Positions 4,063 to 64,000 of a stretch of DNA of 64,000 nt are shown piece by piece (position 1 is the stretch's first letter; each line of letters begins with the position of its first letter). Source of the stretch: a virus. The position numbers were made by a program, and so were the translations under genes. The notes beneath the pieces were generated by a model. It was not told the origin of the DNA, searched no databases, and worked only from the letters and a program-made list of their open reading frames with translations. The stretch lies in IMG/VR virus record IMGVR_UViG_3300022752_000026, positions 60,942 to 124,941 of that record; one strand, 5' to 3'.

Positions 4063-8634
<4,572 letters not shown>

Positions 8635-8637
8635 TAA

Positions 8638-9687
8638 ATGGCTATTGATTTTCCTAATTCGCCCTCGTTAAATCAAACTTACACTTATGGTGGACAGCAA
8701 TGGAAGTGGACCGGAACCACATGGGATTTAGTTGTAACTCAAGTTGTAGGCCCTACCGGACCGACTGGAGCAACTGGAGCAGCAAGTACAGTTCCTGGTC
8801 CAACTGGTTCTACTGGACCTACTGGAAGATATGGCTCGTTTGCTCTTTCATCTTCAACTCCACCTGCTACACCAGCGCTTGGTGATGCTTGGTTTGATTC
8901 AACAACTGGACAAATTTATGTTTACTACGACGGTTATTGGGTTGAGTCTGCATCAAGTATTGCTGGAGTCACTGGACCAACTGGTCCACTTGGACCAACA
9001 GGACCTACTGGTTCTCAAGGAAATATTGGTTTATTAGGACCAACAGGACCTACTGGAGCAGCAAGTACAGTTGCTGGACCAACTGGACCGACTGGACCAA
9101 CAGGGCCATCTGTAACTGGACCAACTGGTCCTCGTGGACTTACTGGACCAACTGGGCCAGGAGTTACAGGACCTACAGGTCCTACGGGAACTCAGGGTCC
9201 TCAATATTCTTCAAATGTTTTAGCACGTCGTCATAGCACAACACAAAACATTTCTTCTGGAATTGAAACAAGAGTTCAGTGGAATATTACTGACCCAGAT
9301 AACTCTAGAGGCAGCGTCTCCTTAACTTATGACGGAGCAACTCAAGTTGGAAGATTTACAAACAACTCTGGAACAACTAAAACTTATTTAGTTACATGGC
9401 AAATAAATTTTGGACCAGACCCTGTTGGAGCAAGAGCAACTTGGCTGTGGCACAACAACACTCTAAACGGAAGCGGTGCTGCTCAAAAGCGTCAAGGAGA
9501 GGTTCACACTGGAATCAACAATGACTTTACTGTGGTCACATCTTCAACTATTGCTGTTTTAGATAACGGAGAGTTTTTTGAGATTTGGGCATGGCAAAAT
9601 TCTGGAAACGAACTTCAAATGGGTGGTTCTGTTGGTCTAAGAGTTGATTCTGGATATTCCAATAAAATTCAAGTGGTGGAGATTTAA
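8638..9687 (+). CDS. collagen-like fibre with IDFPNSP N-terminus, 349 aa
   Basis: The first 32 residues carry the motif [11 protein letters not shown] followed by W.W.GT.W, shared with the genes at 9690 and 12184. This is probably a common docking segment. One module B insert (about residues 62-105, GDAWFD...YVYYDGYW) is followed by Gly-X-Y repeats to about residue 185. A C-terminal globular domain of about 155 residues follows, which looks like a beta-sandwich (W-rich, [13 protein letters not shown]), presumably the receptor-binding tip. It starts three bases after the previous stop and two bases before the next gene, so it belongs to the same operon. Confidence 0.87.
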
Positions 9688-9689
9688 TT

Positions 9690-11084
9690 ATGCCTATTGA
9701 TTTTCCTAATTCTCCTACACTCAATCAGGAATATGTTTCTGGAAACTTAACTTATCGTTGGAATGGAACAGCATGGCGTTTAGTTAGAACAATTGCTGCC
9801 GGTGCTACTGGACCAGTTGGACCAACTGGTCCACAAGGAATTCAAGGAATTCAAGGACCAACAGGACCTCAAGGGACTACTGGTCCAACAGGTTCTGGTC
9901 CTACAGGTCCAACAGGTCCAGTTTCAACAGTTCCAGGTCCTACAGGTCCGCAAGGTCCAACTGGACCACTTGGGCCGCAAGGTATTCAAGGAAACACCGG
10001 ACCAACAGGTCAAACAGGTGCAACTGGCCCTACTGGTGTTCGTGGATTCCAAGGTCCAACAGGGCCGCAAGGAAATGTGGGCGCTACTGGACCAACAGGA
10101 GCGACTGGTCCTCAAGGTATTCAAGGAATTACTGGTCCTACAGGTCAGCAAGGCATAACTGGTCCTACAGGTCAGCAAGGACAAGGACTAAACATTCTTG
10201 GTTCTTATGCAACTTTGGCAGCATTACAAGCAGCACGTCCTATTGGTAATGCTGGAGAAGGATATTTAGTTGTTGGTGTTCTGTATGTCTGGGACCCAGC
10301 AACAAGTCAATGGATTAGTGCTGGAAATATTCAAGGTCCTACAGGACCAACAGGTCCAACATCAACTGTTGCTGGGCCAACTGGACCTACTGGTGCAAGC
10401 GGCGGAATTACTTACACAATCACAAATAATGGAGCAACCTCCTACACAATAAATGGAAACACAAACCCAACGCTTTATTTAATTCGTGGAAATAGATATG
10501 TTTTCAATATAAGCGCTAGCGGTCATCCATTTAGAATTCAAACAAGTGTTAATACTGGTGGATACATTTCAGGAAATCAATACACAACAGGAGTGACAAA
10601 TCCTGGAACAGCAGTAGGAACTCTTACATGGGAAGTTCCACTTAATGCTCCGTCCACTCTTTATTATGTTTGTGAATTTCATTCAATTATGGGTGGACAA
10701 ATTGTTATTACAGATATTGGACCTACTGGTCCTACTGGAGGAACTGGACCTACTGGACCAGCGTTTTATGAACTTACATCTAATACATACACAACATCAA
10801 CAACATTATCATCTAGTGATGCTTTCAAAATAGTAAAAATTACTTCTTCAGGAAGTGCTGATATTACTATTCCTTTAGACGGAACAGGTGGATACACATT
10901 CCCTGTTGGAACTCAAATTGTTGTTGTCCAATATGGAATTGGGCAACTAACCTTTGTCCCTTCTGCATCTGTTACTTTGTATTCAGAAGGTAGTAAGAGA
11001 AAAACATCCCAACAATATGCTACTGCTTCACTTATAAAAATGGGTAACAATGAATGGCTTTTGAGCGGAAGTTTGTCAGCATAA
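9690..11084 (+). CDS. collagen-like fibre with cupredoxin-like domain
   Basis: A 464-residue protein. It has the [11 protein letters not shown] docking segment (residues 2-32), Gly-X-Y repeats, one module A insert (about 165-220) and more repeats. A domain at about 238-343 has the length and strand pattern of a cupredoxin, with H279 in SGHPFRI and C328-x2-H331-x2-M334 in [12 protein letters not shown]. These four residues match the order of type 1 copper ligands, although plastocyanin has four residues rather than two between His and Met. After a short collagen stretch there is a C-terminal beta-rich domain (about 365-464). The stop overlaps the next start as TAATG. Copper binding is inferred, not shown. 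Confidence 0.85.
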
Positions 11085-12010
11085 TGATAAGAACTTTACA
11101 TGGTGTTTTTTCGGCAAGAACTAGAGCCGCATCTCCTGGAACTTTTACTCAGCAGACATCTACTTTTCTTTCTACTGATGAAATTTTGTCTATTCAATAT
11201 CTAAATGGAAAATTTTGGACAGTTGGAACTTCTGCAAAAATGGCAGATTCTGTAGATGGTCTAAGTTGGACTTCGCGTCCAAGTTCTTTTGGAACTTCTA
11301 TTATTTATGATATTACTTATGGTGCTGCTCTTCTTGTTGCAGTTGGGGGAACTGGAAAACTAGCAACATCATCAAATGCTGGGAGTAGTTGGATTCAAAG
11401 AGCAAGTTCTTTTATCACAACATCAATATTCCATGTTACTTATGCAAATAACACTTTTGTTGCTGTAGGAGCAAGTGGAAAGATTGCTACATCAACTGAT
11501 GGGATTACTTGGACACAAGTTGCTGATTCTTCTTTTGCTGGTTCTTTTATTTATGGAATTACTTATGGTAATGGATTATTTGTTGCTGTAGGAGCAAGTG
11601 GGAAAATAGCATATTCTAGTGATAACGGAATAACATGGACAGCAGTTCCAGTGTCTAATTTTGGAACAAGTCAAATAAATTCAATTACATATGCAAATTC
11701 AACATATGTTGCCGTTGCTAATGATGGAAAAATTGCTACATCAACTGACGCCATAACATGGATACAAAGAAGCAACACTTTTTCTGGGTTGGCCATTAAA
11801 GATGTTTCATTTGGAGCAGATATTTTTACAGCAGTTGGTGTAAATGGTCAGATGGCATACTCTGTTGATGGAAGAAGTTGGTCTTCTGTCACTTCTTCTT
11901 TTGGAACAACAAATATAAATTCTATTACTTATGGTCTTGTAAATTTATCAAATGGATTTGCTATAGCAGGAGCAGAAGGAAAAATTGCAACGTCAGCGGT
12001 TGCGAATTAG
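11084..12010 (+). CDS. seven-repeat beta-propeller virion protein
   Basis: The start is the ATG at 11084, coupled to the previous stop in TAATG; an upstream in-frame ATG at 11054 would lie inside the fibre gene. The 308-residue protein consists of seven repeats of about 40 residues, each with I..I.Y....FVAVG..GKIATS.D...W. This is the pattern of a BNR/Ycf48-like propeller, and seven copies would close one seven-bladed ring. In this context it is probably a fibre tip or adhesin, with glycan binding an obvious possibility. No sialidase catalytic residues are evident, so I do not call it an enzyme. Confidence 0.8.
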   Translation: MIRTLHGVFSARTRAASPGTFTQQTSTFLSTDEILSIQYLNGKFWTVGTSAKMADSVDGLSWTSRPSSFGTSIIYDITYGAALLVAVGGTGKLATSSNAGSSWIQRASSFITTSIFHVTYANNTFVAVGASGKIATSTDGITWTQVADSSFAGSFIYGITYGNGLFVAVGASGKIAYSSDNGITWTAVPVSNFGTSQINSITYANSTYVAVANDGKIATSTDAITWIQRSNTFSGLAIKDVSFGADIFTAVGVNGQMAYSVDGRSWSSVTSSFGTTNINSITYGLVNLSNGFAIAGAEGKIATSAVAN

Positions 12011-12020
12011 GTGAATTAAT

Positions 12021-12197
12021 ATGAAGTATACTTATACAATAACCGAAGATTTGAGATGCATAGTCTCCTTGGATGGGCAAGAAATTGACAACTCGGGTCC
12101 ATGGGAATCAATGGAATCTGCTTCAGCGTGGGCTAAAAATTATGTTGATGAGTTAAACTTAATCAGTAACGAGGAGGGTACAGATGCCAGCGATTGA
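12021..12197 (+). CDS. small conserved-looking protein, 58 aa
   Basis: The ATG at 12021 opens a 58-codon frame that ends at TGA 12195-12197 and overlaps the next gene by 14 bases. The protein starts MKYTYTI and contains [22 protein letters not shown], an amphipathic helix after a short beta hairpin. Small proteins with a similar GPW...A..WA..YV pattern occur near fibre genes in other aquatic phages, but I cannot name a function. Tight spacing (10 bases after the propeller stop) and overlap support it being real. A role as a fibre assembly factor is a guess. Confidence 0.6.
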
Positions 12198-15063
12198 TTT
12201 TCCTAATTCGCCTTCCTTAAACCAAGAATTTTCTTCTGGTGGAAATACTTGGCGTTGGACTGGTTCTGTTTGGCAAGTTGTAAGAATTGTTCCTACTGGA
12301 CCTACAGGTCCTCAGGGTATTCAAGGAGCGACAGGTCCAACTGGTGCAACAGGTCCTCAAGGGCAAGGTCTCACTGTTCTTGGTTCTTACAATACATATG
12401 CAGAACTTATTGCTGCTGACCCAACGGGCTCTGCGGGTGAGGCTTACATTGTTGCTGGTGATTTGTATGTGTGGAACGTTCTCAATAATACATGGACAGA
12501 TGTAGGAAGCCTTCAAGGTCCTACAGGTCCTACAGGTGCTACAGGTCAACTTGGTCCTACTGGTCCAGCAGTAACTGGTCCTACAGGTCCTACTGGTTCT
12601 ACTGGACCACAAGGTGCATCAATCACAGTTAAGGGAAGTGTTGCTACTTCTGCAAATCTTCCTCCATCAGGAAACAACATCAATGACGCTTATATTGTCT
12701 TAGATGATGGTGATTTATATGTATGGACAGCGGCTTTATCTTGGTCAAACGTAGGACAAATTGTTGGACCAACAGGACCTACAGGTCCTGGAGTTACTGG
12801 TCCTACTGGTCCAATCGGTCCTCAAGGAAAAGACTATCAATCAACTGATGGAACTGGCATACCTACAGAAACTTATATTGGTGCTGGTGCTCCTACTGCT
12901 CCAACATCTGGAGATATTTGGTTTGATATTGATGACCTTGGGCCAAATGCATTTATTTATGCTGGGGTTACTGCTCCAAATCCAGCAGACTTTTTATTCT
13001 GGGCATCTGAAAATGACCCAGTTGAAGAATTAATTTTTTCTGACCCAGAAGCACCTACAGGTCCACGATATGAAGGCGACTTGTGGATTGATGAAGACGA
13101 TATTGATTTAGATTATTTATCTATCGGACCAACAGCACCACCAACAACTACTGCTCTTTGGGTTGATACATCTGAAGAAGAATTTTTAATTGGTGCTACT
13201 GGTCCAACTGGACCAACTGGACCACAAGGCGTTGCTGGACCTAGTGGAGGTCCTACAGGTGCAACTGGACCAATGGGTCCAACAGGTCCTACAGGGATGA
13301 CAGGACTTACTGGAATGCCTGGTCCTGCTGGTAGCACAGGACCAACAGGTGCAACTGGACCTGCTGGAACAAATGGAACTACTGGACCAACAGGTGCAAC
13401 TGGAGCACTTGGGCCAACTGGTCCTAGTGGTGGACCTACTGGTCCTCAAGGAAATACTGGTCCTGCCGGACCGACTGGGCCAACTGGACCACAAGGTCTA
13501 AATGGTGCAAAAGGTGATACAGGAAATCAAGGACCTACGGGAGTTTCTGGTCCTACTGGACCAGCCGGCGCTACAGGTCCTACAGGTGCAACGGGAGCAG
13601 CATCAACAGTAACTGGACCGACTGGTGCGACTGGTTTGACTGGTGCGACTGGTCCTACAGGTGCTCAAGGAATAACAGGACCTACAGGAGCAACGGGGCA
13701 AGCAACTCTTACTCGTTATCGTTATGTAGCAACTGCTGGACAGACAAGTATTTCTGGTATTGATGCTAATGGACTGACTTTGTCTTACACATCTGGTCTT
13801 GAGCAGGTTTACATCAATGGTGTATTACAAACTCGTGGTCAAGATTATGTAGCAACAAATGGAACATCTATTACTGGAATTCCTGCTTTAGCAGTAAATG
13901 ATGAAATTGTTATTTTGACTATTGGTGGATTCAATGTTGCTGACACAATTCCACTATCAACTATTGATGCTAAAGCAGATTTAGTAGTTGGAACTGCTGA
14001 TAACGCTGTGACAAGACTTGGAGTTGGTTCAGACTTCAGCATATTGTTTGCAGATAGCAGCACTGTAAGCGGACTCCGCTGGGGAAGCACTTATCAAGTA
14101 TCTGGAAAGAACCAACTGCTCAACGGAGACTACAGCGTGTGGCAGCGTGGTACTGGAACATTTACTTTGACTGCTCCAACTTTTGTAATGACTGCTGACC
14201 GCTGGCGTGCTGGAGGAAATGGAAACGTAACTCGTCAGTCTTTTGTAGTCGGAAACTCAATTGTTGGATATGAGCCAGCATTTTTCTTACGCTACACAAT
14301 TACATCAAATAGCCAAAACTACGAACTTATGAACCGCATGGAAGACGTAAGAACGCTTGCTGGTCAAGTAGCCACTGTCTCCTACTGGGCAAAACTATCT
14401 AGTGGCGTTGATACGCTTACAATTTTGCCTAGATTAGTTCAAGATTTTGGAACTGGTGGCTCTCCATCAGCAACTCTTCCTACAAACTTAAGCGTCCCAA
14501 CTCTTACTACTTCGTGGCAAAGATTTACTTCAACTATTACAGTTCCTTCCATATCTGGAAAGACTTTAGGAACAAACAACGACTCAAGTTTGTATCTATC
14601 TTTCCAAGTATCTAATACAGGAACTGGAGCAGTAGATTTCTGGGGAGTGCAGGTAGAACCAGGAAATACTGCAACTCCTTTTGTGACAAAGGGAGGCTCG
14701 TATGATGAAGAACTTTCTTTCTGTCAAAGATTCTACTATCGCCAGACTGCTCCAAGTGCTAACACTCGTTTTGCAATTGGAAATGCTACTTCAGCAACTA
14801 ACGTATCAGGAACAGTAGTTCTTCCTACAACTATGAGAGTAGCGCCTACAGCGATTGATTTCTCAACTCTTGGAGCATTTTCAAGTGGAGCAAATATTGC
14901 TATTACCGCAGCAACTCTTGATACAACAGCAGTAGGTCTTAATTCTGCTGCAATCAACTTTACTGTTGCTGCTGGCCTTACTCAGGATAGAACTTACTGG
15001 ATTGTGGCCAACAACTCCACTAGCGGATTCCTTGGTATTAGCGCAGAGATTAGGAACGAATAA
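12184..15063 (+). CDS. collagen-like fibre with carbohydrate-binding-like tip, 959 aa
   Basis: It begins with the [11 protein letters not shown] docking segment and has two module A inserts (near 12362-12520 and 12614-12765). An acidic insert with repeated GDIWFDIDD / GDLWIDEDD motifs lies at about residues 238-335. A long Gly-X-Y stalk runs to about residue 510. The C-terminal 450 residues include a linker and a jelly-roll-like domain with [16 protein letters not shown] and WGVQVE motifs, typical of carbohydrate-binding tips in phage fibres. An upstream GAGGAGGGTAC lies just before the start. The stop overlaps the next ATG (TAATG). It is probably a receptor-binding protein. Confidence 0.87.
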
Positions 15064-54074: not shown

Positions 54075-56141
54075 TTAGTATTCAATAGCAGCAGCAGTTG
54101 CTCCACCTGTAGTGTCACGGAGGGCAGCAGCCACACCGTTTACAGAGATGGTTGATACGACCTTGAGTGACTCAACGCCAACCTTAGCAACACCTTCAAA
54201 TGTTTCTACGAACATCTTGTAGTCGTTAGTTCCGACTAGAGATGAATCGCGGATAATTCCAAGGTCAAGAGTTCCACCATCAAGGAACAAGAATGTTCCT
54301 TCTGCGAAGATGTACCAGGTGAATGTGTCTGTGAACTCATTCATTGCTCCTGCACTCTGTGAACCTGTGAAGTCATCAATGTGCCAAGTGATGTTGATAC
54401 CGCGTGATGCGATATAACCTTCAATTTCAGCATATGCATTGAGTGTGCTGTCTCCAGGCATTGATAGAGTGAGGTCTGCTGCCATTGCATCCTTGACCCA
54501 TGCTGGGGCAATAACGCGAAGTGGAGCATCTGCCTCTAGGCGATGACGACCACGGTAGTTAGCAGCAGCACGACCTAGTTGTACTAGGTAGTCACGAGCA
54601 AGACCAATAAGTGATGTTGAAGTGACTGCTGTTGAGAGGGTTGTCAAGCGAGAAAGAATTTGTCCTTCTGCTTCACGAGAGTGCTGAATCAGACCCAACT
54701 CGTTGTGACGAGCGATGAGTTCTGGGTAAGCACGAGTCATCAAGTTACCAAACTGCAACTGAAGTGTGACAGCATCTGTAGCAACTGTCTCTTCGTTTGC
54801 TGCTGACACAGTAAGAGAAGTCTTGGTGTCAGTTCCTGGGTTGGTATCTGTTGCGTTTGTCCAGATTCCAACAGCGTTGCCATAAGATGACAAGACTGGA
54901 GGTGTTACGAAGCGAATACCGCCACGGTCAGCCTGGAACTTTGGAAGTGCATCCTTGAGAGGACGAGCAGTTGTTCCAAGACCAAAGATGTCGTACTTGA
55001 CTTCATATGGTGCTGAGTGTCCACCAGAAGCAACAAGTGCTTCAGGTCCTGTTACATCCTGGATTTTCTTCCAGTTTGTCTCAGCATCGCTTGTAAGAGT
55101 GCGCTCTTCTGGATATTGAGTTGTGATAGACGCAACAATGTGTTGCTCTCCGTCTCCGCCATTTACACGGCGAAGTGCATGAATACGCTTGCTCATTGCT
55201 TCAGCAACAGCGCTCATGTCGTTAAGTGTGCTACCAGCCGTATATCCTGGAATATCTGCGCCCGCTGTGATTGCCACAGGTGCGGCAGAAGTCCGAGATG
55301 TTGGACGGCGGTCAGCCGGTACCTCAATGTTGAGGTTATCTGCGTTGTCAGCAGCGGCGGTCACGGGTGCCTCCATAGTTTCTTGAACCTTTGTTGGTTC
55401 ACTTGCTTCGGTTACTGTTTCTTGAATAGATGCTTCTGCACCTTCAGCAACTTCAGTTGTGGTTTCTGCTGATGCAGCAACTACTTCTGGAGTTTCAACT
55501 GCTGGTGTTTCAACAATTGTTTCGGCAACTGGTGCCTCTGTTGCTACTTCTGTAGAAGCAACAACAGTTTCTTCTGCTACAGCCTCGGCAACTGGTGCCT
55601 CTACTGTCTCAGTTGTTACTGGTGTTTCTGGGGTTGAGAACTCTGCGCTCTTCTCCGCATCGGTTGACGCTTCAGTCATGGACTTCTCCTCTTCTTCTTT
55701 CTTTTTCTCCTCATCTTCTGCTGCTGGAATTTCTTCAGCAACAGGAGCAGGTGCTTCTGCTGGTGCTTCAGCATCTGCTGGAGCAGGAGTTTCTGCTGGA
55801 GCCGCTTCTTCAACAGTTTCAGGCATCATTTCTTCTGCCTTCTTCTCTTCTTCTTCGGCTGGCATTGCTTCCAATGTTGAGTCGCCATCATTACCGTAAA
55901 CGCGGTTTGTTGCTTCTTGAGCACGCTGAGCGAGTTCAATTACTGCGGCCTCGCGGCGCTTGATTTCGTTACGAACTCCATCAAGCATATCGGCAAGCGA
56001 CGTCATAGCGTCAACTGTTTGCGGAGTAGGGTCTTCTTTCTCAACCGCTTCAAACTCACTGATGATTGCTGATTGAAGTTCAGTGACTTGTTCGTCACCA
56101 AGTTCACTCAGTTGGTCCATCATGCTTTTAATACGGTCCAC
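54075..56141 (-). CDS. scaffold-major capsid fusion protein
   Basis: The start is GTG 56141: GGAGGAGG lies seven bases before it, and the first residues are DRIKSMMDQLSEL; an upstream ATG (56246) is in frame but lacks such a site. The 688-residue product has a helical scaffold-type region (about 1-75), a long acidic Ala/Pro/Glu/Thr-rich region (about 80-260), a short junction (VTAAADNADN) and a HK97-type capsid domain (about 285-688, RGGIRFVTPPVLSS, LTSDAETNWKKIQDVTGPEAL). Maturation should remove the N-terminal scaffold. Confidence 0.85.
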   Translation of the reverse strand: MDRIKSMMDQLSELGDEQVTELQSAIISEFEAVEKEDPTPQTVDAMTSLADMLDGVRNEIKRREAAVIELAQRAQEATNRVYGNDGDSTLEAMPAEEEEKKAEEMMPETVEEAAPAETPAPADAEAPAEAPAPVAEEIPAAEDEEKKKEEEEKSMTEASTDAEKSAEFSTPETPVTTETVEAPVAEAVAEETVVASTEVATEAPVAETIVETPAVETPEVVAASAETTTEVAEGAEASIQETVTEASEPTKVQETMEAPVTAAADNADNLNIEVPADRRPTSRTSAAPVAITAGADIPGYTAGSTLNDMSAVAEAMSKRIHALRRVNGGDGEQHIVASITTQYPEERTLTSDAETNWKKIQDVTGPEALVASGGHSAPYEVKYDIFGLGTTARPLKDALPKFQADRGGIRFVTPPVLSSYGNAVGIWTNATDTNPGTDTKTSLTVSAANEETVATDAVTLQLQFGNLMTRAYPELIARHNELGLIQHSREAEGQILSRLTTLSTAVTSTSLIGLARDYLVQLGRAAANYRGRHRLEADAPLRVIAPAWVKDAMAADLTLSMPGDSTLNAYAEIEGYIASRGINITWHIDDFTGSQSAGAMNEFTDTFTWYIFAEGTFLFLDGGTLDLGIIRDSSLVGTNDYKMFVETFEGVAKVGVESLKVVSTISVNGVAAALRDTTGGATAAAIEY

Positions 56142-56167
56142 TACTGTCCCTCCTCCGGGCCAGTTAT

Positions 56168-56237
56168 GACAGGCATTTCCTGTCTCGCTTATCTCACTAG
56201 AGGCCGAGGGACTCCAGAAAGCATTAAATGCTTGGAG
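56168..56237 (-). promoter_or_regulatory. structured 5' leader of capsid gene
   Basis: The leader between the protease stop (56311) and the capsid GTG (56141) contains two hairpins: GACAGG/CCTGTC (56168-56184, five-base loop) and AAGCATT/AATGCTT with a one-base centre (56219-56233), extended by CTCC/GGAG at its base. It is otherwise AT-rich near 56240-56300, with possible -10-like boxes (TATAGA, TAATAT). No U-tract follows either hairpin. It may contain the capsid promoter and translational control elements. Confidence 0.5.
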
Positions 56238-56310
56238 GCACTCCACCTAGTATTGAATATTACATTAGTTTCTATAGTGTGATTTGGCTGTTGTACGATT
56301 TTTTTACTAC

Positions 56311-59300
56311 TTAGGTAAGTAAGCGAAGTAACTTAGCCATCTGGCCAGAGATTTCAGATTGGCTATAAAAGTCGCCTCCAGACATAAAAGACTTTAGGTC
56401 TTTAGTGGCTACGTCAGCGTCTTCTTTTCCAATCTTGGCTTCAACTCTATCTATCATATTTTCCATCAAATCACGAAGAGCAGGTGGGACATCGCTAAAG
56501 CGAATCTTTTCTGCATCTTCTCCAAAAGCAAATGGAAGGTTGGCGATAACCTTTCCTAACTCTCCAGCGCTTGTTCTGACGTTTTCTAAACTTTCAGGGT
56601 TCAACGCTTTATTGTCCAATCTGTCAATAATGCTAATCAAATCGCCAGCAGCCTTCGCTGCTCCAGCGTAATTACCAGCATCATCTAGATTCTCTGCTTC
56701 TTCAATCTTTTCAACTACTCCTTGTGCGCCAGATACTCCTAGGTCCACTTTCAGCCGAGCGAGCACTTGCCGAAATTTTCCAGAGGCATCTCTGGGTTGT
56801 GTTTTACCTGGGACGTATTTAGCGATTGAATCTACTGGCTTCTGCTCGCTCTTATCTGCTTTTTTTAGTGCATCCAATTCTTCTTCAGTCAGACCTTCTG
56901 TGTCTGCTTCAGCAAATTCAAATGCAGAGAATTCGGTAAACGATGCCTCGTCTAATCCGTTTCCATCTACCAAAAGCATGATGATTTCTTCTTCGGGTGT
57001 CCACTCTCCATCAAACAAATCATCTGGTTCACTCAAGATTTCATTGATGTCTTTGACCATATCATCAGTAGAAACCTGAGTGATAAAAGTGCCCAAAAGT
57101 TCATCAATTTCAGCAAAAGATTTACGTTGTTTGTGCATCTTTGCGTGTGTTGCTGTGTAGAAACCAAGTGCTTCTTTGTGACGTAATTGGCAATAGCCTT
57201 TAGCACGAGGTCCAAGATACTTAGCCAAATGCTTTACGCAGCGCTTCCAGTCTCCTGGTGTTCCCCAGCGAATCTTTGCGGCTCCTTCACCTCTTGTCCA
57301 GTAACGACGAAGTCTTTCAGCGTTTCCTCGGTTACGGTCAAGACCACCAGCAGCAGTTTGTGATTCAACAATTTCTGCGGCAGATGCTGTGCGACCTGCT
57401 TCAGTCCAGTTTGCTGGAATGAGGTCGGCCTTATCTAGTTTGCGAGCCATCTTCATAATGTGACGACGAACCATTCCACGCTTTCCTGGCTTTGAACGAC
57501 CATAAGCGTGAATTGCGTTCTTCAAATCTCCGACATTGCGGATTGGGAAAGAACCATCTTTAAGTGCTTTTCCTTCTTCAGCAAGTTTCATACGAGCCTT
57601 GCGGTCAATAACAGCAAGTTCTGTATCAGCATCTTGAAGAGTCTGGTGCATATAGGCACTATCAGCATCTCTCATTGAGCGAACTTTTGCTGATAGTTCT
57701 TCTGCTTTGATTGCTGCTGTCATAGCAGCCATACGAGATTTAGCATCATCAGCAGCAGCAACAATTGGTGCTTCTAGATTATCTAAACGAGACTTTACTT
57801 CTTCTAGTGGGTCATGCTTGAGTTGCGCAAGAACACTTGCACCTGCTGCAACAAGAGCCATAACTTGACCAGAAGCAACACGAGCGCGAGCAATAGGGAA
57901 TCCTGGAACGTTTACTTGGCAGACAGCAACAAGTTCCAATGAACCCTTGATTGGGCGCCAGTCACCTGAAGGTGCTGATGCACGAAGTGCACGAATTTGT
58001 TCTGGTGTTGTTCCTGGACGAAGTGCTCCAGCAACCCAGATACCGTGAGCATCTTCACCAGCATGAACATCTGCAATTGCTGATGCTGTATCGTCATAGT
58101 GACGAACTGCTTCAGATGCTGATGCTTCTAGTGGAGCATGTCCTCCGGCTAAAGTTAGTTGTCCAACTGGGACATCCGCACCTTCTTCAGTGCGAACTAC
58201 GCCAGTATGGAAGTAGGCATATTTGCTTTTACTGCGTGGTGGCTTTGTTCCAAAAGCCATTCCAATGTGGTCAACATGCCATGCGGCAATGTGGCCAAAA
58301 ACCCGACCATCATCTGCTACGGTAAGAGCAGTCGGCTTGTTCAACTTAGGGTTGTCAAACCACTCTTTCGGCGGAGTAACTGGAATTGCTCCAGCAATAA
58401 TTCCGCACGCTACCAGAGCAGATGCGTCTAGCGGGTTAACGCCATCCACATAAACTCCATCTTGTATCACTTGATTATCCTCCTGCTCCGCCTTCTCGCC
58501 AACAAGAACAATTCTGCATTCTTGGAAAGCGGGTTTAGGCACAAGAGTCACTGCCATGACTCTCGCTTGTGTTATGTTCATTTTACCGCCTCCGACCTTT
58601 CCGTCAGAGTCGCCATCTGAAGCATTTTCTTCTTTTGCTTCAAACATATCCATATCAGCAGATACGCCACGGATAAATCCTCCGCGGACCAATCGTTCTG
58701 CTTCTTTTCCATAGACACCATCGTCAAACTGTCCTCTGGCATTTCCTATGCCTTCTTCAGTTCGTTCCATGTGTGTAATCTTTCCTACAACTACTGAACC
58801 GTTGTGGCCTTCACCAGTCTGTATCTGCCACAAAAGAGGTAGAGGTAGTTCACGAATTGAGATTGCGCCCTTAGCAAACTTGCGACCATCACCAGACTCA
58901 ACTGCTTCTGGAATTACCAAAGGAATCGTAAATTCGGCACCTGTTGACTGCTCTTTATTTTCAACAGTAGTTCCGTAGACTTTTTGGCGGGCATCTTCAA
59001 CTCTTGCCCTGATTTCTCCAGCCGCAATTACTGCGATAGAAGGAATGATGTATTCAGTAGAGAAAGTTTTCTTTCCATACATCTGACGATGCTCTTTGTC
59101 TCCAGTCCAAAGACCAGTTGCTTCTTTGTGACGAAGTGCGCAATATCCCTTTGCACGAGGACCCATGTATTTAGAGAGTTGACGGACGCAGCGAGTCCAA
59201 TCCCCTGGAGTATTCCAACGAATCTTCGCAGCGCCTTTTCCGTATAACCAATAACGACGAAGTTTTTCAGCATTGCCGCGATTCTTGTCTACACCACCTG

Positions 59301-61521
59301 CCGCCATGATTGCAACAATAAGTGCTTTATCAATATCAAAAGCAGATGCTGTCTGTGCTTCTACTGCATCATCAATTTGTGACATAACAGCAACAAGAGA
59401 TTTATCGTCAAGAACAACTACTGGTGGAGGAGTTGGGCTTCTCAAGTCATTGAGAACACGAGCATCCTCTTCCCACTTTCCAGGCTTACGAACAAAAGTA
59501 GTTGCGTCAGTCCCTTCTGTTGATGAAGGTATAAGAGCAACTAAATCCATAACTGCCTGAGCATCATCTGGAGAGACGATTGCCATATACATAGGAGGAA
59601 CATCAGAAGTTGCTGGAGTAAGTTTTTGTCCAGCACTTGAACGAATTCCAGAAAGATTTCCACCAGGCTTTTGCATAAACTGTGGAGAAAGATTTTTTCC
59701 AGGAGAAGGAGTTAAGTCTTTTGCTGGCTTGTATCCTTCAATTTTTGTTTCTCTGCTTCCTTTTCCAATGTCTGGGCGATACCAGTGTGCGTTTGGATAA
59801 GAGATGCTTCCATCTTTATTGACAACTTTTTGCTCTAACCATTGACGAAGAGAAGGGTCATTGTATGCGTTAGGAGATGTGTAATTCATCAACTCTTCAC
59901 GAGTCATTTTTGCTCTAGGAGTTTCTCCTGGAACTGGAGTTGATAGTCCAGACTTTAGATTCGCTGCTCCGTTAGAAGCACGCATATCAGATGCCCAGTT
60001 ACCCCAGTCAGCATTTATTGTGCTAACTTCGTTTGAGTTTAGTTGAGGAAGTCTTTCTGGAAGAGTTGCGTTTGCTCTATCAATAGGAACTCTTGGTTCT
60101 CCTAGAATTCCGCTTGTAAGATTTCTCTGACGAACATCATTTCTAACAATTGGTTTGAAAGTATCTAGTGGCTCTGTCGTATTTCCTGGAACATCAACAA
60201 AGTTTCCATTAGAAAGTTTTACTTTTACAGTTTGATTATCTGGATTTACTGATTCAATTGTTCCAGTGTATTTAGCATCTCCACCAATAACTACTTGTCC
60301 ACCAGCCTTGGCAAACTTTCCACCCTTGTCACGAACTTGTCCTCGTGCTTTTTGTGAGCGCTCTTCAGGAGTGTAATTTCCATCTTGATTTGTTGGTCCT
60401 CCAACTGGTGCAGGAGCAGGAGTTGTCTTTAGAAGACCACCTTCTCCAGCAGCAGTAAGAGAGTCATCAGTTACATCGTAATATTCGTAATAGTCTGGGT
60501 ATTCGTCAGCGTAGTCAATAGAGACTCCGTCAATCATGTCCCAATCAACGCCGTCCATTTCCTCAAGCATAAGATTTGATTCTTCAGGGTTTATCTTTGC
60601 TATTGAAATTGTTTCAAAAGGATTAGCGTCTACAAATCCAGCAACAACAATCGCTGTGTCAACATCTACAGGAACGTGAATTTTAGAAACAGAGTCATAT
60701 GCTTCATCAAGAGAACGGTCATATGTTTCAAAGTCGTGGTTGACGTTTCCTAAATCTTCCCACATTCCGTCATCCCACACATAGCATGTGCCATCAGGAT
60801 TTACTTTGTATAAACGGTCAATTCCACTTCCATCCATACGAATACGGACATAGAACTGAGGAGCAAATTCTTCTGGAAGAGAGTTTGCATCAACAAATGA
60901 ATCAAATTGAATCTTCTCTGGATTTTCATAATCAGACATCACAAAATCGTAGGAAGCAGTGATTGAGTTTTGTTTTGCTTTTCTGTTTTCACGATTTACA
61001 ATTGCTGTAGCCCATGAACGTGCAGCATCTCCACCCCAAAGTGCCCACGCAATTCTTCCGTTACTTGGGTAGCCATCTTGTTCTGGCTTATACCCCTTAC
61101 CCTTTTTATCTACTTCGTGACGTGGAAAGTATTTAGCGATGTGGCGAATCTTGCGAATACCAATTTGTCCACCACGAGCCAGAGTGCGAGCAGTATTAAG
61201 ACCTACAGATGTTCCACCACGGTTCTTATCTGCTCTCCAAGCAAGACCACGCTTTGCCTCTGCTTGAACTGATTTTGGAATAGTGTATAGACGGTCATTG
61301 TTTGAAAATACTTTAATATCTAAATCAGATATGGCAGCAACTGCCAGTTCAAACATAGAGGATGCTTCAGGTTGGGTCTGGTCTCCTGTTGGAGTAAAAG
61401 AAGACAGCAATCTATCTGCTTCGTCAACAGACAGAACTAAGTTCTTTTTCTCATCAAGAACTACGGCTTTGTCGTCTATTTGAAATACGACTTCACTGCC
61501 ATTTCGCCCAACAAATTGCAC
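56311..61521 (-). CDS. capsid maturation protease polyprotein, 1736 aa
   Basis: The start is GTG 61521 with GGAG six bases upstream. Modules in order: an N-terminal domain; a basic conserved domain (about 87-180, RGGTSVGLNTARTLARGG, FPRHEVDKKGKGYKPEQ, GRIAWALWGGDAARSWA); a low-complexity region; a basic RYW/GDW/GPRAKGYC module (about 743-805); a prohead serine protease domain with H906 in GEGHNGSVVVG and S954 in GVSADMD; further head-protein regions; a second RYW/GDW/GPRAKGYC module (about 1393-1455); and an acidic, helical C-terminus. Ala-Ala-Gly junctions recur between modules. Position just before the scaffold-capsid gene fits a maturation protease, and the excess modules suggest packaged internal proteins. 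Confidence 0.78.
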   Translation of the reverse strand: MQFVGRNGSEVVFQIDDKAVVLDEKKNLVLSVDEADRLLSSFTPTGDQTQPEASSMFELAVAAISDLDIKVFSNNDRLYTIPKSVQAEAKRGLAWRADKNRGGTSVGLNTARTLARGGQIGIRKIRHIAKYFPRHEVDKKGKGYKPEQDGYPSNGRIAWALWGGDAARSWATAIVNRENRKAKQNSITASYDFVMSDYENPEKIQFDSFVDANSLPEEFAPQFYVRIRMDGSGIDRLYKVNPDGTCYVWDDGMWEDLGNVNHDFETYDRSLDEAYDSVSKIHVPVDVDTAIVVAGFVDANPFETISIAKINPEESNLMLEEMDGVDWDMIDGVSIDYADEYPDYYEYYDVTDDSLTAAGEGGLLKTTPAPAPVGGPTNQDGNYTPEERSQKARGQVRDKGGKFAKAGGQVVIGGDAKYTGTIESVNPDNQTVKVKLSNGNFVDVPGNTTEPLDTFKPIVRNDVRQRNLTSGILGEPRVPIDRANATLPERLPQLNSNEVSTINADWGNWASDMRASNGAANLKSGLSTPVPGETPRAKMTREELMNYTSPNAYNDPSLRQWLEQKVVNKDGSISYPNAHWYRPDIGKGSRETKIEGYKPAKDLTPSPGKNLSPQFMQKPGGNLSGIRSSAGQKLTPATSDVPPMYMAIVSPDDAQAVMDLVALIPSSTEGTDATTFVRKPGKWEEDARVLNDLRSPTPPPVVVLDDKSLVAVMSQIDDAVEAQTASAFDIDKALIVAIMAAGGVDKNRGNAEKLRRYWLYGKGAAKIRWNTPGDWTRCVRQLSKYMGPRAKGYCALRHKEATGLWTGDKEHRQMYGKKTFSTEYIIPSIAVIAAGEIRARVEDARQKVYGTTVENKEQSTGAEFTIPLVIPEAVESGDGRKFAKGAISIRELPLPLLWQIQTGEGHNGSVVVGKITHMERTEEGIGNARGQFDDGVYGKEAERLVRGGFIRGVSADMDMFEAKEENASDGDSDGKVGGGKMNITQARVMAVTLVPKPAFQECRIVLVGEKAEQEDNQVIQDGVYVDGVNPLDASALVACGIIAGAIPVTPPKEWFDNPKLNKPTALTVADDGRVFGHIAAWHVDHIGMAFGTKPPRSKSKYAYFHTGVVRTEEGADVPVGQLTLAGGHAPLEASASEAVRHYDDTASAIADVHAGEDAHGIWVAGALRPGTTPEQIRALRASAPSGDWRPIKGSLELVAVCQVNVPGFPIARARVASGQVMALVAAGASVLAQLKHDPLEEVKSRLDNLEAPIVAAADDAKSRMAAMTAAIKAEELSAKVRSMRDADSAYMHQTLQDADTELAVIDRKARMKLAEEGKALKDGSFPIRNVGDLKNAIHAYGRSKPGKRGMVRRHIMKMARKLDKADLIPANWTEAGRTASAAEIVESQTAAGGLDRNRGNAERLRRYWTRGEGAAKIRWGTPGDWKRCVKHLAKYLGPRAKGYCQLRHKEALGFYTATHAKMHKQRKSFAEIDELLGTFITQVSTDDMVKDINEILSEPDDLFDGEWTPEEEIIMLLVDGNGLDEASFTEFSAFEFAEADTEGLTEEELDALKKADKSEQKPVDSIAKYVPGKTQPRDASGKFRQVLARLKVDLGVSGAQGVVEKIEEAENLDDAGNYAGAAKAAGDLISIIDRLDNKALNPESLENVRTSAGELGKVIANLPFAFGEDAEKIRFSDVPPALRDLMENMIDRVEAKIGKEDADVATKDLKSFMSGGDFYSQSEISGQMAKLLRLLT
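57156..57357 (-). repeat. basic module copy 2 of protease polyprotein
   Basis: This stretch encodes about 67 residues (TAAGGLDRNRGNAERLRRY, GTPGDWKRCVKHLAKYLG, RAKGYCQLRHKEALG). It is a clear paralogue of the stretch at 59103-59307, with similar nucleotide sequence, so it arose by internal duplication or was recruited twice. Confidence 0.85.
59103..59307 (-). repeat. basic module copy 1 of protease polyprotein
   Basis: This stretch encodes MAAGGVDKNRGNAEKLRRY, TPGDWTRCVRQLSKYMG and RAKGYCALRHKEATG. Most residues are identical to the copy at 57156-57357, including the invariant RYW, GDW, CV and GPRAKGYC positions. Confidence 0.85.
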
Positions 61522-61829: not shown

Positions 61830-62645
61830 CTACTGCTCCTTTTTACTGTCGTCTAGTGGACCACCTGTCACCCAAGCGCGACAAGTCCTAGATGCTGCAC
61901 ATTTGAAATCAAACGCTTCGCAGTATCCAAGTTCAGCAGTTCCGATGGCATCCCAAGCATCGGTATCGGATGAACCGCCTTGCTCAATTCCTTGAGCGAT
62001 GCAGTTTTTCATTTCTGTAGTAACAACAAATACGGCGCAGTTTCCACAGCGTTGCTTCTTTGCTGTTTCGGAATCAACGCCCCACTCGCCAGCCATTTTT
62101 TGCCAATATTCTTCATTTGGCTCTTCTGGATTGAGTGGTCCATACATAGCAGTATCAATAGCGTTCTTGCGATTTTTTAGATTGATAGCAATGTCCTGAG
62201 TTGCTGGAGGGCATGTCTGCTCCCCCGCGGCGGTCATTGTTTTGTTTTCTTTTGGAGATATAGGCTTGTAAGATTTTGGTTCAAAGCCTTCAGAAGAATA
62301 ATCATCTACGAGTTCTTCTTTCGCGGCTCCCAGCGCATCATCAAAGGAAGGATAAGACTCCAAACCTTCTTCGTCTTGATAGAAGAAAACTGGCATGTTG
62401 TATGTGACAACCTCAAGAATCTCTGTAGCAGCAGTATCTGTATTAGTTACTGTATCTACTCCTTCTATAGCGTCAATGCGAGCGCCAATGGCCTGTGAGA
62501 CAGTTTCAATGGTGTTCTCTGTGGCAGTTTCTGGGAATAGAATCTCTGTTCTACTTCCATCTGTAACTATGGCAAAAGCAACATTTGGATTGCTGTCTTC
62601 TTCTTCATGGTTAGAGAAGTAGTAGGTTCTGTAGTAGTTACTCAT
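61830..62645 (-). CDS. cysteine-cluster protein of head operon, 271 aa
   Basis: The N-terminal 120 residues form an acidic alpha/beta domain (NPNVAFAIVTDGSRTEILF, TEILEVVTYNMPVFFYQD). A linker with TMTAAGE leads to a C-terminal domain with C200-x2-C203, C215, C242, C249 and C255 (RCGNCAVF, GYCEAFDFKC, RTCRAW). The pattern C-x2-C...C...GYC resembles high-potential iron-sulfur proteins or a zinc-binding fold. It shares one base (TAATG) with the kinase-like gene. Its function in the virion is unknown. Confidence 0.65.
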   Translation of the reverse strand: MSNYYRTYYFSNHEEEDSNPNVAFAIVTDGSRTEILFPETATENTIETVSQAIGARIDAIEGVDTVTNTDTAATEILEVVTYNMPVFFYQDEEGLESYPSFDDALGAAKEELVDDYSSEGFEPKSYKPISPKENKTMTAAGEQTCPPATQDIAINLKNRKNAIDTAMYGPLNPEEPNEEYWQKMAGEWGVDSETAKKQRCGNCAVFVVTTEMKNCIAQGIEQGGSSDTDAWDAIGTAELGYCEAFDFKCAASRTCRAWVTGGPLDDSKKEQ

Positions 62646-64000
62646 TACTTTATCCTCCTTACAAACTCTGACGCATTCTTAATGATGTAGTCTGCTCTAG
62701 CATCAATATATGCTGCCGCTCTTGGGTCAACAAACTGCATAGCAGCAGCACGTTCACGCATACGGGTAGCAAACTCTACTACTTGACTTACGGCAGCAGC
62801 CTCGCCAATATCACCAATATGTTGGGCAGCAAAAGGAATTACTGCATTCTTGTTTCCATATCTTCCTAGAACTACCTTGATTGGGTTTAAGAAGAGAGGG
62901 TCATTGTCGTGCTTATCAGCATCTCCAAAAGCACCATTGAACATAGCAAGTCCATTATCTACAGGAACTAGTCTAAGTTTTCCATTAGCATCTCGTCCCC
63001 ACATAAAGTTGTGGCCGTGTCTATCAGTGTTTCCAATAATTGCATTAGCAACAATGAAGTCTAATAACTCTGCTTTATGCTCAGGAGCAATATCATTGCT
63101 AGAAACATAGATTTCGCCATTGTTCTTGATGTTTTGTAGGCCAAAGAATCCAGGACCTGCAAACTCCATAACTCCAATTCCACCAACTTCCATAATCGGT
63201 GAGTCTGGGTTTACTGCTTTTGCCGCAGGGGATGCAAAACCAAGGTCTTTATAGAGTTGAGCAACAATTTCTTCTGCCTTAATTCCATTACCTTTGAATG
63301 GCTTATTGTTGTATTTGTCCTTGTCATATTTGATAAGAACTTGTTCTTTGGTAACAGAGTTTTCAAGAAGAATAAGTCCATTTATTCCAGCACTAATGTT
63401 TGACTTAAACTTCCAGTCTCCCCAAACAACAGCACCTCTTTGAAGTTTGAAGTTTCCGTTTTTATCCCAGAAAACATCAGCGCTCATTCCTTCAAATTCT
63501 CTTGCTACCTTAGCAACAAATTGGTTCGCTGTATCTGAGCCAACCTGAGGTAGAGGAAGTTTAGGCAGTTCACCAAATCCTTCTAAACCAGCCTTGACTT
63601 TTTCAAGTCTGTCAAGAAGTGCATCACGCTCGTCGTCATTGAGGCCATTTTTTCCTTTTACAAGTTGAATCAAAGCATCAACGTTGTTCTTACCGCCAAC
63701 AAGTGCATTTCTAAATACAGGATTGTATGCGTCTGGGAAAACAATTACATCATCAAAGTTTTTGCGTAGCCCGCGTCTCATATCGTTAGCGGCCCACCCC
63801 ATCTTGTCCTCTATCTCTTTATTGAGAACAAACAAATCAGGGAATAGTTTTTCAAACTCTGCTACTTTTCCATTGAACTCATCATCCATCTTGCGCAAAG
63901 GTATGTTCTTTTGAAGATTTGCCAAGGCTTCTAACTCTCGTGCTTCTTCAAACCAACCAAGACCTTTAGCGTAGGTTGCTGCTCTTCTCATATCAGCACC
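62645..64000 (-). CDS. HipA/PI3-kinase-like protein, partial
   Basis: The frame is open to the right edge (codons for GAD precede the first Met at 63991), so the true N-terminus may lie outside. The visible 450 residues have a helical N-terminal part. A kinase-like domain follows with GLILLENSV..EQVLIKYDKD (candidate ATP-lysine), a catalytic loop GNTDRHGHNFM (NTDRHGHN at 63008-63031) and PVDNGLAM (metal Asp, about 62943-62966). This is the D-x3-N ... D-N-G arrangement of HipA- and PI3/4-kinase-like enzymes. It is the first visible gene of the head operon. Confidence 0.72.
   Translation of the reverse strand, partial: GADMRRAATYAKGLGWFEEARELEALANLQKNIPLRKMDDEFNGKVAEFEKLFPDLFVLNKEIEDKMGWAANDMRRGLRKNFDDVIVFPDAYNPVFRNALVGGKNNVDALIQLVKGKNGLNDDERDALLDRLEKVKAGLEGFGELPKLPLPQVGSDTANQFVAKVAREFEGMSADVFWDKNGNFKLQRGAVVWGDWKFKSNISAGINGLILLENSVTKEQVLIKYDKDKYNNKPFKGNGIKAEEIVAQLYKDLGFASPAAKAVNPDSPIMEVGGIGVMEFAGPGFFGLQNIKNNGEIYVSSNDIAPEHKAELLDFIVANAIIGNTDRHGHNFMWGRDANGKLRLVPVDNGLAMFNGAFGDADKHDNDPLFLNPIKVVLGRYGNKNAVIPFAAQHIGDIGEAAAVSQVVEFATRMRERAAAMQFVDPRAAAYIDARADYIIKNASEFVRRIK

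Follow-up and report, generated by a model that had tools for sequence, protein, structure and literature searches.

A capsid-maturation protease gene of modular build, with probable tandem protease domains and a mobile small module, in a relative of actinobacterial phages

Prohead proteases of the HK97 type (Pfam S78, phrog_80) are proteins of a few hundred residues with one protease domain. Herpesviruses possess maturational proteases that cut at sites of the form hydrophobic-x-A/S (the slash marking the cut), and in their UL26/UL80 fusion the protease and the scaffold lie on one chain. This chain cuts itself at two sites (PMC12474303, PMC8537868). The prohead protease of the SPN3US gp245 type uses the motif A-X-E (PMC10052503), one protease processing itself, the capsid protein and other head proteins at this short motif, with the substrates encoded by separate genes. 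Head proteases of very large size are no rarity among actinophages, as seen in gp70 of Cece (1548 residues), annotated as a capsid maturation protease, and gp8 of GodPhather (1682 residues). Of the relatives of the chain described here that come from Microbacterium phages and from DSL-LC01, only some are annotated as protease, and domain detail is given for none of them.

The window, the whole stretch of 64,000 nucleotides analysed here, is the last part of a virus record of 124,941 bases. On its minus strand, a frame runs from 61521 to 56311 with a GTG start, a length of 1736 residues and no internal stop; its coordinates and length agree with the first-pass annotation of this DNA. In it we recognise the capsid-maturation protease gene of a phage lineage already known, and the phage of the window is related to actinobacterial phages. 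The middle of the protein matches head-maturation protease families strongly in PHROG; the Pfam Peptidase_S78 match at residues 906-1012 is weak (E 0.0044, under the curated cut-off). Full-length relatives occur in the Microbacterium phages Cece, Pumpernickel, Zooman, Big4 and A3Wally, with 42-44% identity over 96-97% of the chain, and in DSL-LC01, with 52% identity over 94%, while the environmental contig L010 encodes a protein 100% identical in its best segment. As in HK97-type systems, and as in Cece, Mimi and DSL-LC01, the gene lies directly upstream of the major capsid gene; by PHROG assignment it is followed by the major head protein, a gene without assigned function, the major tail and the adaptor genes. 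A PDB sequence search with the protease and the capsid protein gave no useful relatives. The features of the two genes are as follows.

56311..61521, minus strand: capsid-maturation protease fusion protein, 1736 residues
60979..61308, minus strand: N-terminal basic domain, residues 72-181, phrog_2859
60142..60369, minus strand: RDxGGKF region, residues 385-460
59347..59604, minus strand: conserved TPPPVV segment, residues about 640-725, ahead of B1 in the relatives read
59077..59295, minus strand: basic module B1, residues 743-815, phrog_6439
58477..58938, minus strand: S78-type protease domain 1 (S78a), residues 862-1015, with H906 and S954
57847..58380, minus strand: probable protease domain 2 (Dom2), residues 1048-1225, with H1141 and S1185 and a predicted S78-like order of elements
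57397..57624, minus strand: GSFPI helical module, residues 1300-1375
57127..57345, minus strand: basic module B2, residues 1393-1465, in some relatives only
56314..56829, minus strand: C-terminal domain, residues 1565-1736
54075..56246, minus strand: major capsid protein gene, 723 residues, phrog_777, the presumed HK97-type core being preceded by LVASGG (residues 404-409)

The neighbourhood has several features of its own. The major capsid protein has an N-terminal part of 400 residues, the middle of which is acidic and rich in proline and alanine, ahead of a core of about 320 residues, and this N-terminal part is presumed to be a propeptide, an unusually long one. A 271-residue protein with a Cys-rich C-terminal part is encoded beside the protease (61830-62645, minus strand) and carries TMTAAGE at residues 137-141, between its N-terminal and Cys-rich parts; this is the motif of the protease linkers and is kept in two homologous loci, and the gene at the same position in DSL-LC01 is annotated as a high potential iron-sulfur protein. 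The adjoining frame of 448 residues (62645-63991, minus strand) reaches the end of the window still open and represents the C-terminal part of a giant protein, at least 2291 residues long in L010; its matches to PI3/PI4-kinase, CotH and HipA_C kinase domains are weak, and one homologue matches sigma-70 region 4 as well. On the plus strand, at 4063-15063, collagen-like and tail-fibre proteins (1523, 349, 464 and 959 residues) form a run transcribed in the direction opposite to the head and tail genes.

The likeness to an HK97-type protease concerns domain 1, in which H906 lies within EGHNGS and S954 within RGVSAD. The two residues are kept in 55/58 and 58/58 aligned relatives, respectively, which bears out the prohead-protease assignment made from them in the first-pass annotation, and judged by its sequence S78a is a divergent S78 domain. 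A second and larger conserved domain, Dom2, was overlooked in that annotation. Its H1141 and S1185 are kept in 57/58 and 58/58 relatives, and in an AlphaFold model of residues 840-1475 both regions form confident beta domains with the same E-E-H-E-E order, each serine starting the strand after the helix and each histidine standing before the matching strand, so that H1141 and S1185 are in register with the pair of domain 1. The pTM of this model (0.37) and its inter-domain confidence are low, in line with flexible linkers. Searched with Foldseek, the model matches T4 gp21 (probability 0.99) and the EBV and KSHV proteases (0.98) at weak E values of 0.014 and up, the query containing both domains, so that these matches may come from either one. 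With hhalign, the S78a and Dom2 profiles show no significant link (E 0.11), although the same residues are paired when the alignment is made permissive. The model thus makes Dom2 probably a second S78-type protease domain, a number of domains and a total length that set the chain apart from the HK97-type enzyme. Dom2 is also the most widespread part of the chain: separate searches found it in 831 phage records, nearly all of them actinophages, in which it is the protease domain, compared with 59 records for S78a, 34 for the N-terminal module, 20 for GSFPI and 8 for the C-terminal domain.

The remaining parts of the chain were ordered across all fetched loci by scanning with home-made HMMs. The usual order in relatives is N-terminal module, GKF region, B1, S78a, Dom2, GSFPI, an optional B2 and the C-terminal domain, and the window chain resembles Cece and DSL-LC01 in this order but has the B2 that both of them lack. 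Whereas the chain is encoded by one gene in the window, as in the Microbacterium phages Cece, Zooman and Pumpernickel, pieces of it are distributed over two or three genes in DSL-LC01, in Arthrobacter phage Mimi and in Gordonia phage GodonK, and all three DSL-LC01 genes are annotated as capsid maturation protease. The cuts between genes fall in inter-domain linkers: before B1 in DSL-LC01 and four other loci, before the C-terminal domain in DSL-LC01 and five others, and on both sides of Dom2 in one locus, where S78a, Dom2 and a GSFPI-C-terminal unit are separate. In Mimi, a GSFPI-B gene is separate from an S78a-Dom2 gene, and in GodonK the B module and Dom2 stand on separate genes, without S78a. 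These splits support the view that the extra parts, which make up most of the chain, are separable units, much as the first-pass annotation had supposed. Actinophage MuF-protease fusions (phrog_859 and phrog_21406, with GodPhather gp8 as an example) likewise put a B module on the same very long head protein as S78a and Dom2, but they have a MuF-like N-terminal part that the window chain lacks, and their B module follows Dom2 in GodPhather or lies between the two protease domains in environmental relatives.

Several of these parts have distributions of their own. The phrog_2859 domain at residues 72-181 recurs in phages of Roseobacter and Synechococcus, in proteins of the head region, and also in Vibrio and PaBG phages; it was considered as a third copy of the basic module and rejected, belonging to a different family and scoring 42.5 against B1. 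The HMM of the RDxGGKF region also matches the giant upstream gene of some relatives. An equation of the GSFPI module with Pfam DUF6582 finds no support in Pfam. Several relatives encode the C-terminal domain on its own, immediately ahead of the major capsid gene, and in DSL-LC01 it is a 183-residue gene directly upstream of the capsid gene; because this is the place of a scaffold gene, the C-terminal domain may be read as a scaffold.

The basic modules were proposed in the first-pass annotation at 59103-59307 (residues 739-806) and 57156-57357 (residues 1389-1455), and both are found there, 70% identical and with an alignment score of 294.5, far beyond chance. Both belong to phrog_6439, which matches the chain in two stretches at E 2.6e-47 with the whole domain covered. 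The family recurs in fused and standalone proteins, counts 249 phage records and extends to actinobacterial prophages. In an AlphaFold model, B1 is compact and all-helical, with a pLDDT of about 90 in its core; B2 is poorly modelled in the 840-1475 run, because few relatives carry it. The PDB holds no fold match to the module model (best E 4.9), and in BFVD every match below E 0.001 is apparently a homologue (35-55% identity), these matches being mainly actinophage capsid proteases and small proteins. Across 64 diverse copies, W769 and G803 are invariant. The tryptophan of the invariant Trp, Cys and Arg positions once claimed for the module thus stands, while Arg777, Cys778 and Cys794 are nearly invariant. 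D774, C778, C794 and H798, which form two i,i+4 pairs, are kept in 60/64 copies and lost together in two, a pattern that suggests a metal site. The module core has a mean net charge of +8 over all copies, but standalone modules range from -2 to +28, only part of the family, the window clade included, being basic. Basicity is therefore not the conserved property of the module, and the idea that such modules are nucleic-acid binders by nature finds no support.

The module is mobile. Standalone module genes of 64-122 residues occur in actinobacterial genomes and phages; in prophage loci they lie upstream of HNH and terminase genes, two loci showing the order module, HNH, TerS-like gene and terminase large subunit and three others a terminase downstream, and in Gordonia and Rhodococcus phages they lie near such genes. 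In Jubie, Asapag and NBR1, the module is near DnaQ, HNH or Holliday junction resolvase genes. A fused copy may precede S78a, lie between S78a and Dom2, follow Dom2 or precede a canonical S78 protease; in four loci (L130, L149, L151 and L155) the module is fused to an S78 domain of the canonical type. A tree of 87 module copies requires no fewer than five switches between the standalone state and other arrangements, and in it the B2-type copies form a group separate from B1, though weakly supported (91/74). A copy after Dom2 is present in 11/68 full-length relatives. Copies similar to B2 lie upstream of B1 in two loci; together with the separate grouping in the tree, this leaves a recent in-gene duplication of B1 into B2 unsupported. 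Some module-bearing proteins are composites of another kind. In a Streptomyces genome (L130, 3798-6023), one protein combines an S78 protease with a 2H phosphoesterase/RNA-ligase domain and a B module; several Gordonia phage head proteases are annotated as RNA ligase. Another head protease (L151, 781-2883) has DUF6582, a peptidoglycan-binding domain, a B module and S78 on one chain.

The linkers between the domains are marked by a short motif, phi-[TV]-A-[AS]-G, scored as [LIV][TV]A[AS]G. The copies in the window chain are as follows.

60445..60459, minus strand: LTAAG, residues 355-359, candidate processing site
59017..59031, minus strand: variant VIAAG, residues 831-835, between B1 and domain 1, candidate processing site
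57841..57855, minus strand: LVAAG, residues 1223-1227, end of Dom2
57343..57357, minus strand: TAAGG, residues 1389-1393, directly before B2

In the linkers of 62 relatives, [TV]A[AS]G occurs 98 times against 4 for the reversed motif, and in 30 non-redundant relatives, with sites adjacent to B excluded, 40 times, the reversed motif once; shuffled linkers give 3.6 copies, and none of 200 shuffles more than 9. With the leading hydrophobic residue, forward and reversed counts are 200 and 7 in protease genes, 78 and 2 in capsid genes, 17 and 5 in other upstream genes, where several of the 17 lie in split-off protease halves or in the 271-residue neighbour, and 2 and 13 in downstream genes. As the motif was noticed on reading the linkers and then tested on the same family, only the count from other lineages, 18 against 3 reversed in other protease fusions, is partly independent. 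Not every linker of every relative has the motif. The copies at the Dom2 tail and next to B are homologous rather than independent; the LVAAG at the Dom2 end has homologous counterparts in nearly all relatives and may be structural. The same may apply to the copy in the capsid gene, which keeps a fixed distance ahead of the core and was rejected as proof of cleavage, since it coincides with what we take to be the conserved HK97-type N-arm GG..P and since the mycobacteriophage LittleE is cut about 8-10 residues earlier. The start of the mature LittleE capsid protein, established by experiment, is N-DLDRNNGTGGYAVP (PMC3706429), 8-10 residues before the motif position. The open papers searched contained no experimental capsid-processing data or virion mass spectrum for the lineage. 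We read the motif copies as candidate processing sites, compatible with self-cleavage, and polyprotein processing of the chain is plausible.

Taken together, we put at roughly 55% the probability that a head-maturation protease, its scaffold and accessory internal domains are joined in the product of this gene, a chain that cuts itself at the linkers. The chain would be built into the inner core during procapsid assembly, probably through the C-terminal helical domain; one or both of the serine protease domains (H906/S954 and H1141/S1185) would then become active, cut the chain at linkers with the motif and also free the major capsid protein of its N-terminal propeptide. The B modules, small, helical and probably metal-binding, would ride along with a packaging or head role, equally functional as separate proteins. 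Such a scheme resembles the SPN3US system, in which the substrates are separate genes rather than one chain, and the herpesvirus fusion, the scaffold of the window chain being suggested by the gene order of relatives. The likeness to the herpesvirus and T4 gp21 proteases is one of fold, by Foldseek, and the accessory modules have no counterpart there. The herpesvirus site also resembles the linker motif, which in the window chain is a putative cleavage site. A stricter version, in which a tandem-protease polyprotein cuts itself at hydrophobic-[TV]-A/[AS]-G under a herpesvirus-like site rule and frees scaffold, protease and metal-binding modules, the latter a mobile head or packaging domain, is tentative.

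The same long chain could instead be a permanent multidomain fusion that is never cut into functional products, its motif a compositional or binding feature and its modules tethers of the protease to capsid, portal or DNA. Related actinophages, MuF-protease fusions included, do keep long fusions, and some motif copies are homologous structural ends, but close relatives make the same pieces as separate proteins, and in non-homologous linkers the motif reaches about ten times the shuffled rate while being rare in other genes, so that we regard a permanent fusion as rather unlikely. Release of the modules as DNA-binding internal proteins, which would stay in the mature head and be ejected with the genome, had been the interpretation of the first-pass annotation, whose reading as a whole is partly supported. 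The strongly basic charge of the protease-borne modules (the core mean noted above), the linker motif and the precedent of SPN3US, whose prohead protease processes internal, presumably ejected proteins (PMC10052503), speak for release. The charge of the standalone modules is not conserved, however, the PDB yields no fold match to a DNA-binding protein, and B2, missing from most close relatives, is dispensable, so that it cannot be a virion protein on which the lineage depends; that the modules bind DNA and are ejected is speculation, and we consider this account quite improbable. A further proposal, which concerns the module alone and is compatible with the self-cutting head-protease fusion favoured above, makes it a packaging-complex domain, for example a partner of HNH endonuclease, terminase or portal, that was repeatedly recruited into head proteases. 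The fused copies in head proteases and the HNH and terminase neighbours of standalone copies in prophages and in Gordonia and Rhodococcus phages point in this direction; against it, other standalone copies lie by DnaQ or Holliday junction resolvase genes or at a genome end, and we regard the proposal as less likely than not.

The gene is ordinary as a capsid-maturation protease; what is unusual about it is the modular build, the probable tandem arrangement of protease domains, the mobile D-C-C-H module and the linker motif. The uncharacterised phrog_6439 domain gains a context in the neighbourhood of head proteases and terminases, a conserved four-residue site and a predicted fold. If the motif is a cleavage signal, the chain would be a self-processing head polyprotein in phages that have cultured Microbacterium-phage relatives, and the specificity of the protease, the part played by the tandem domains and the fate of the released pieces would be directly testable.
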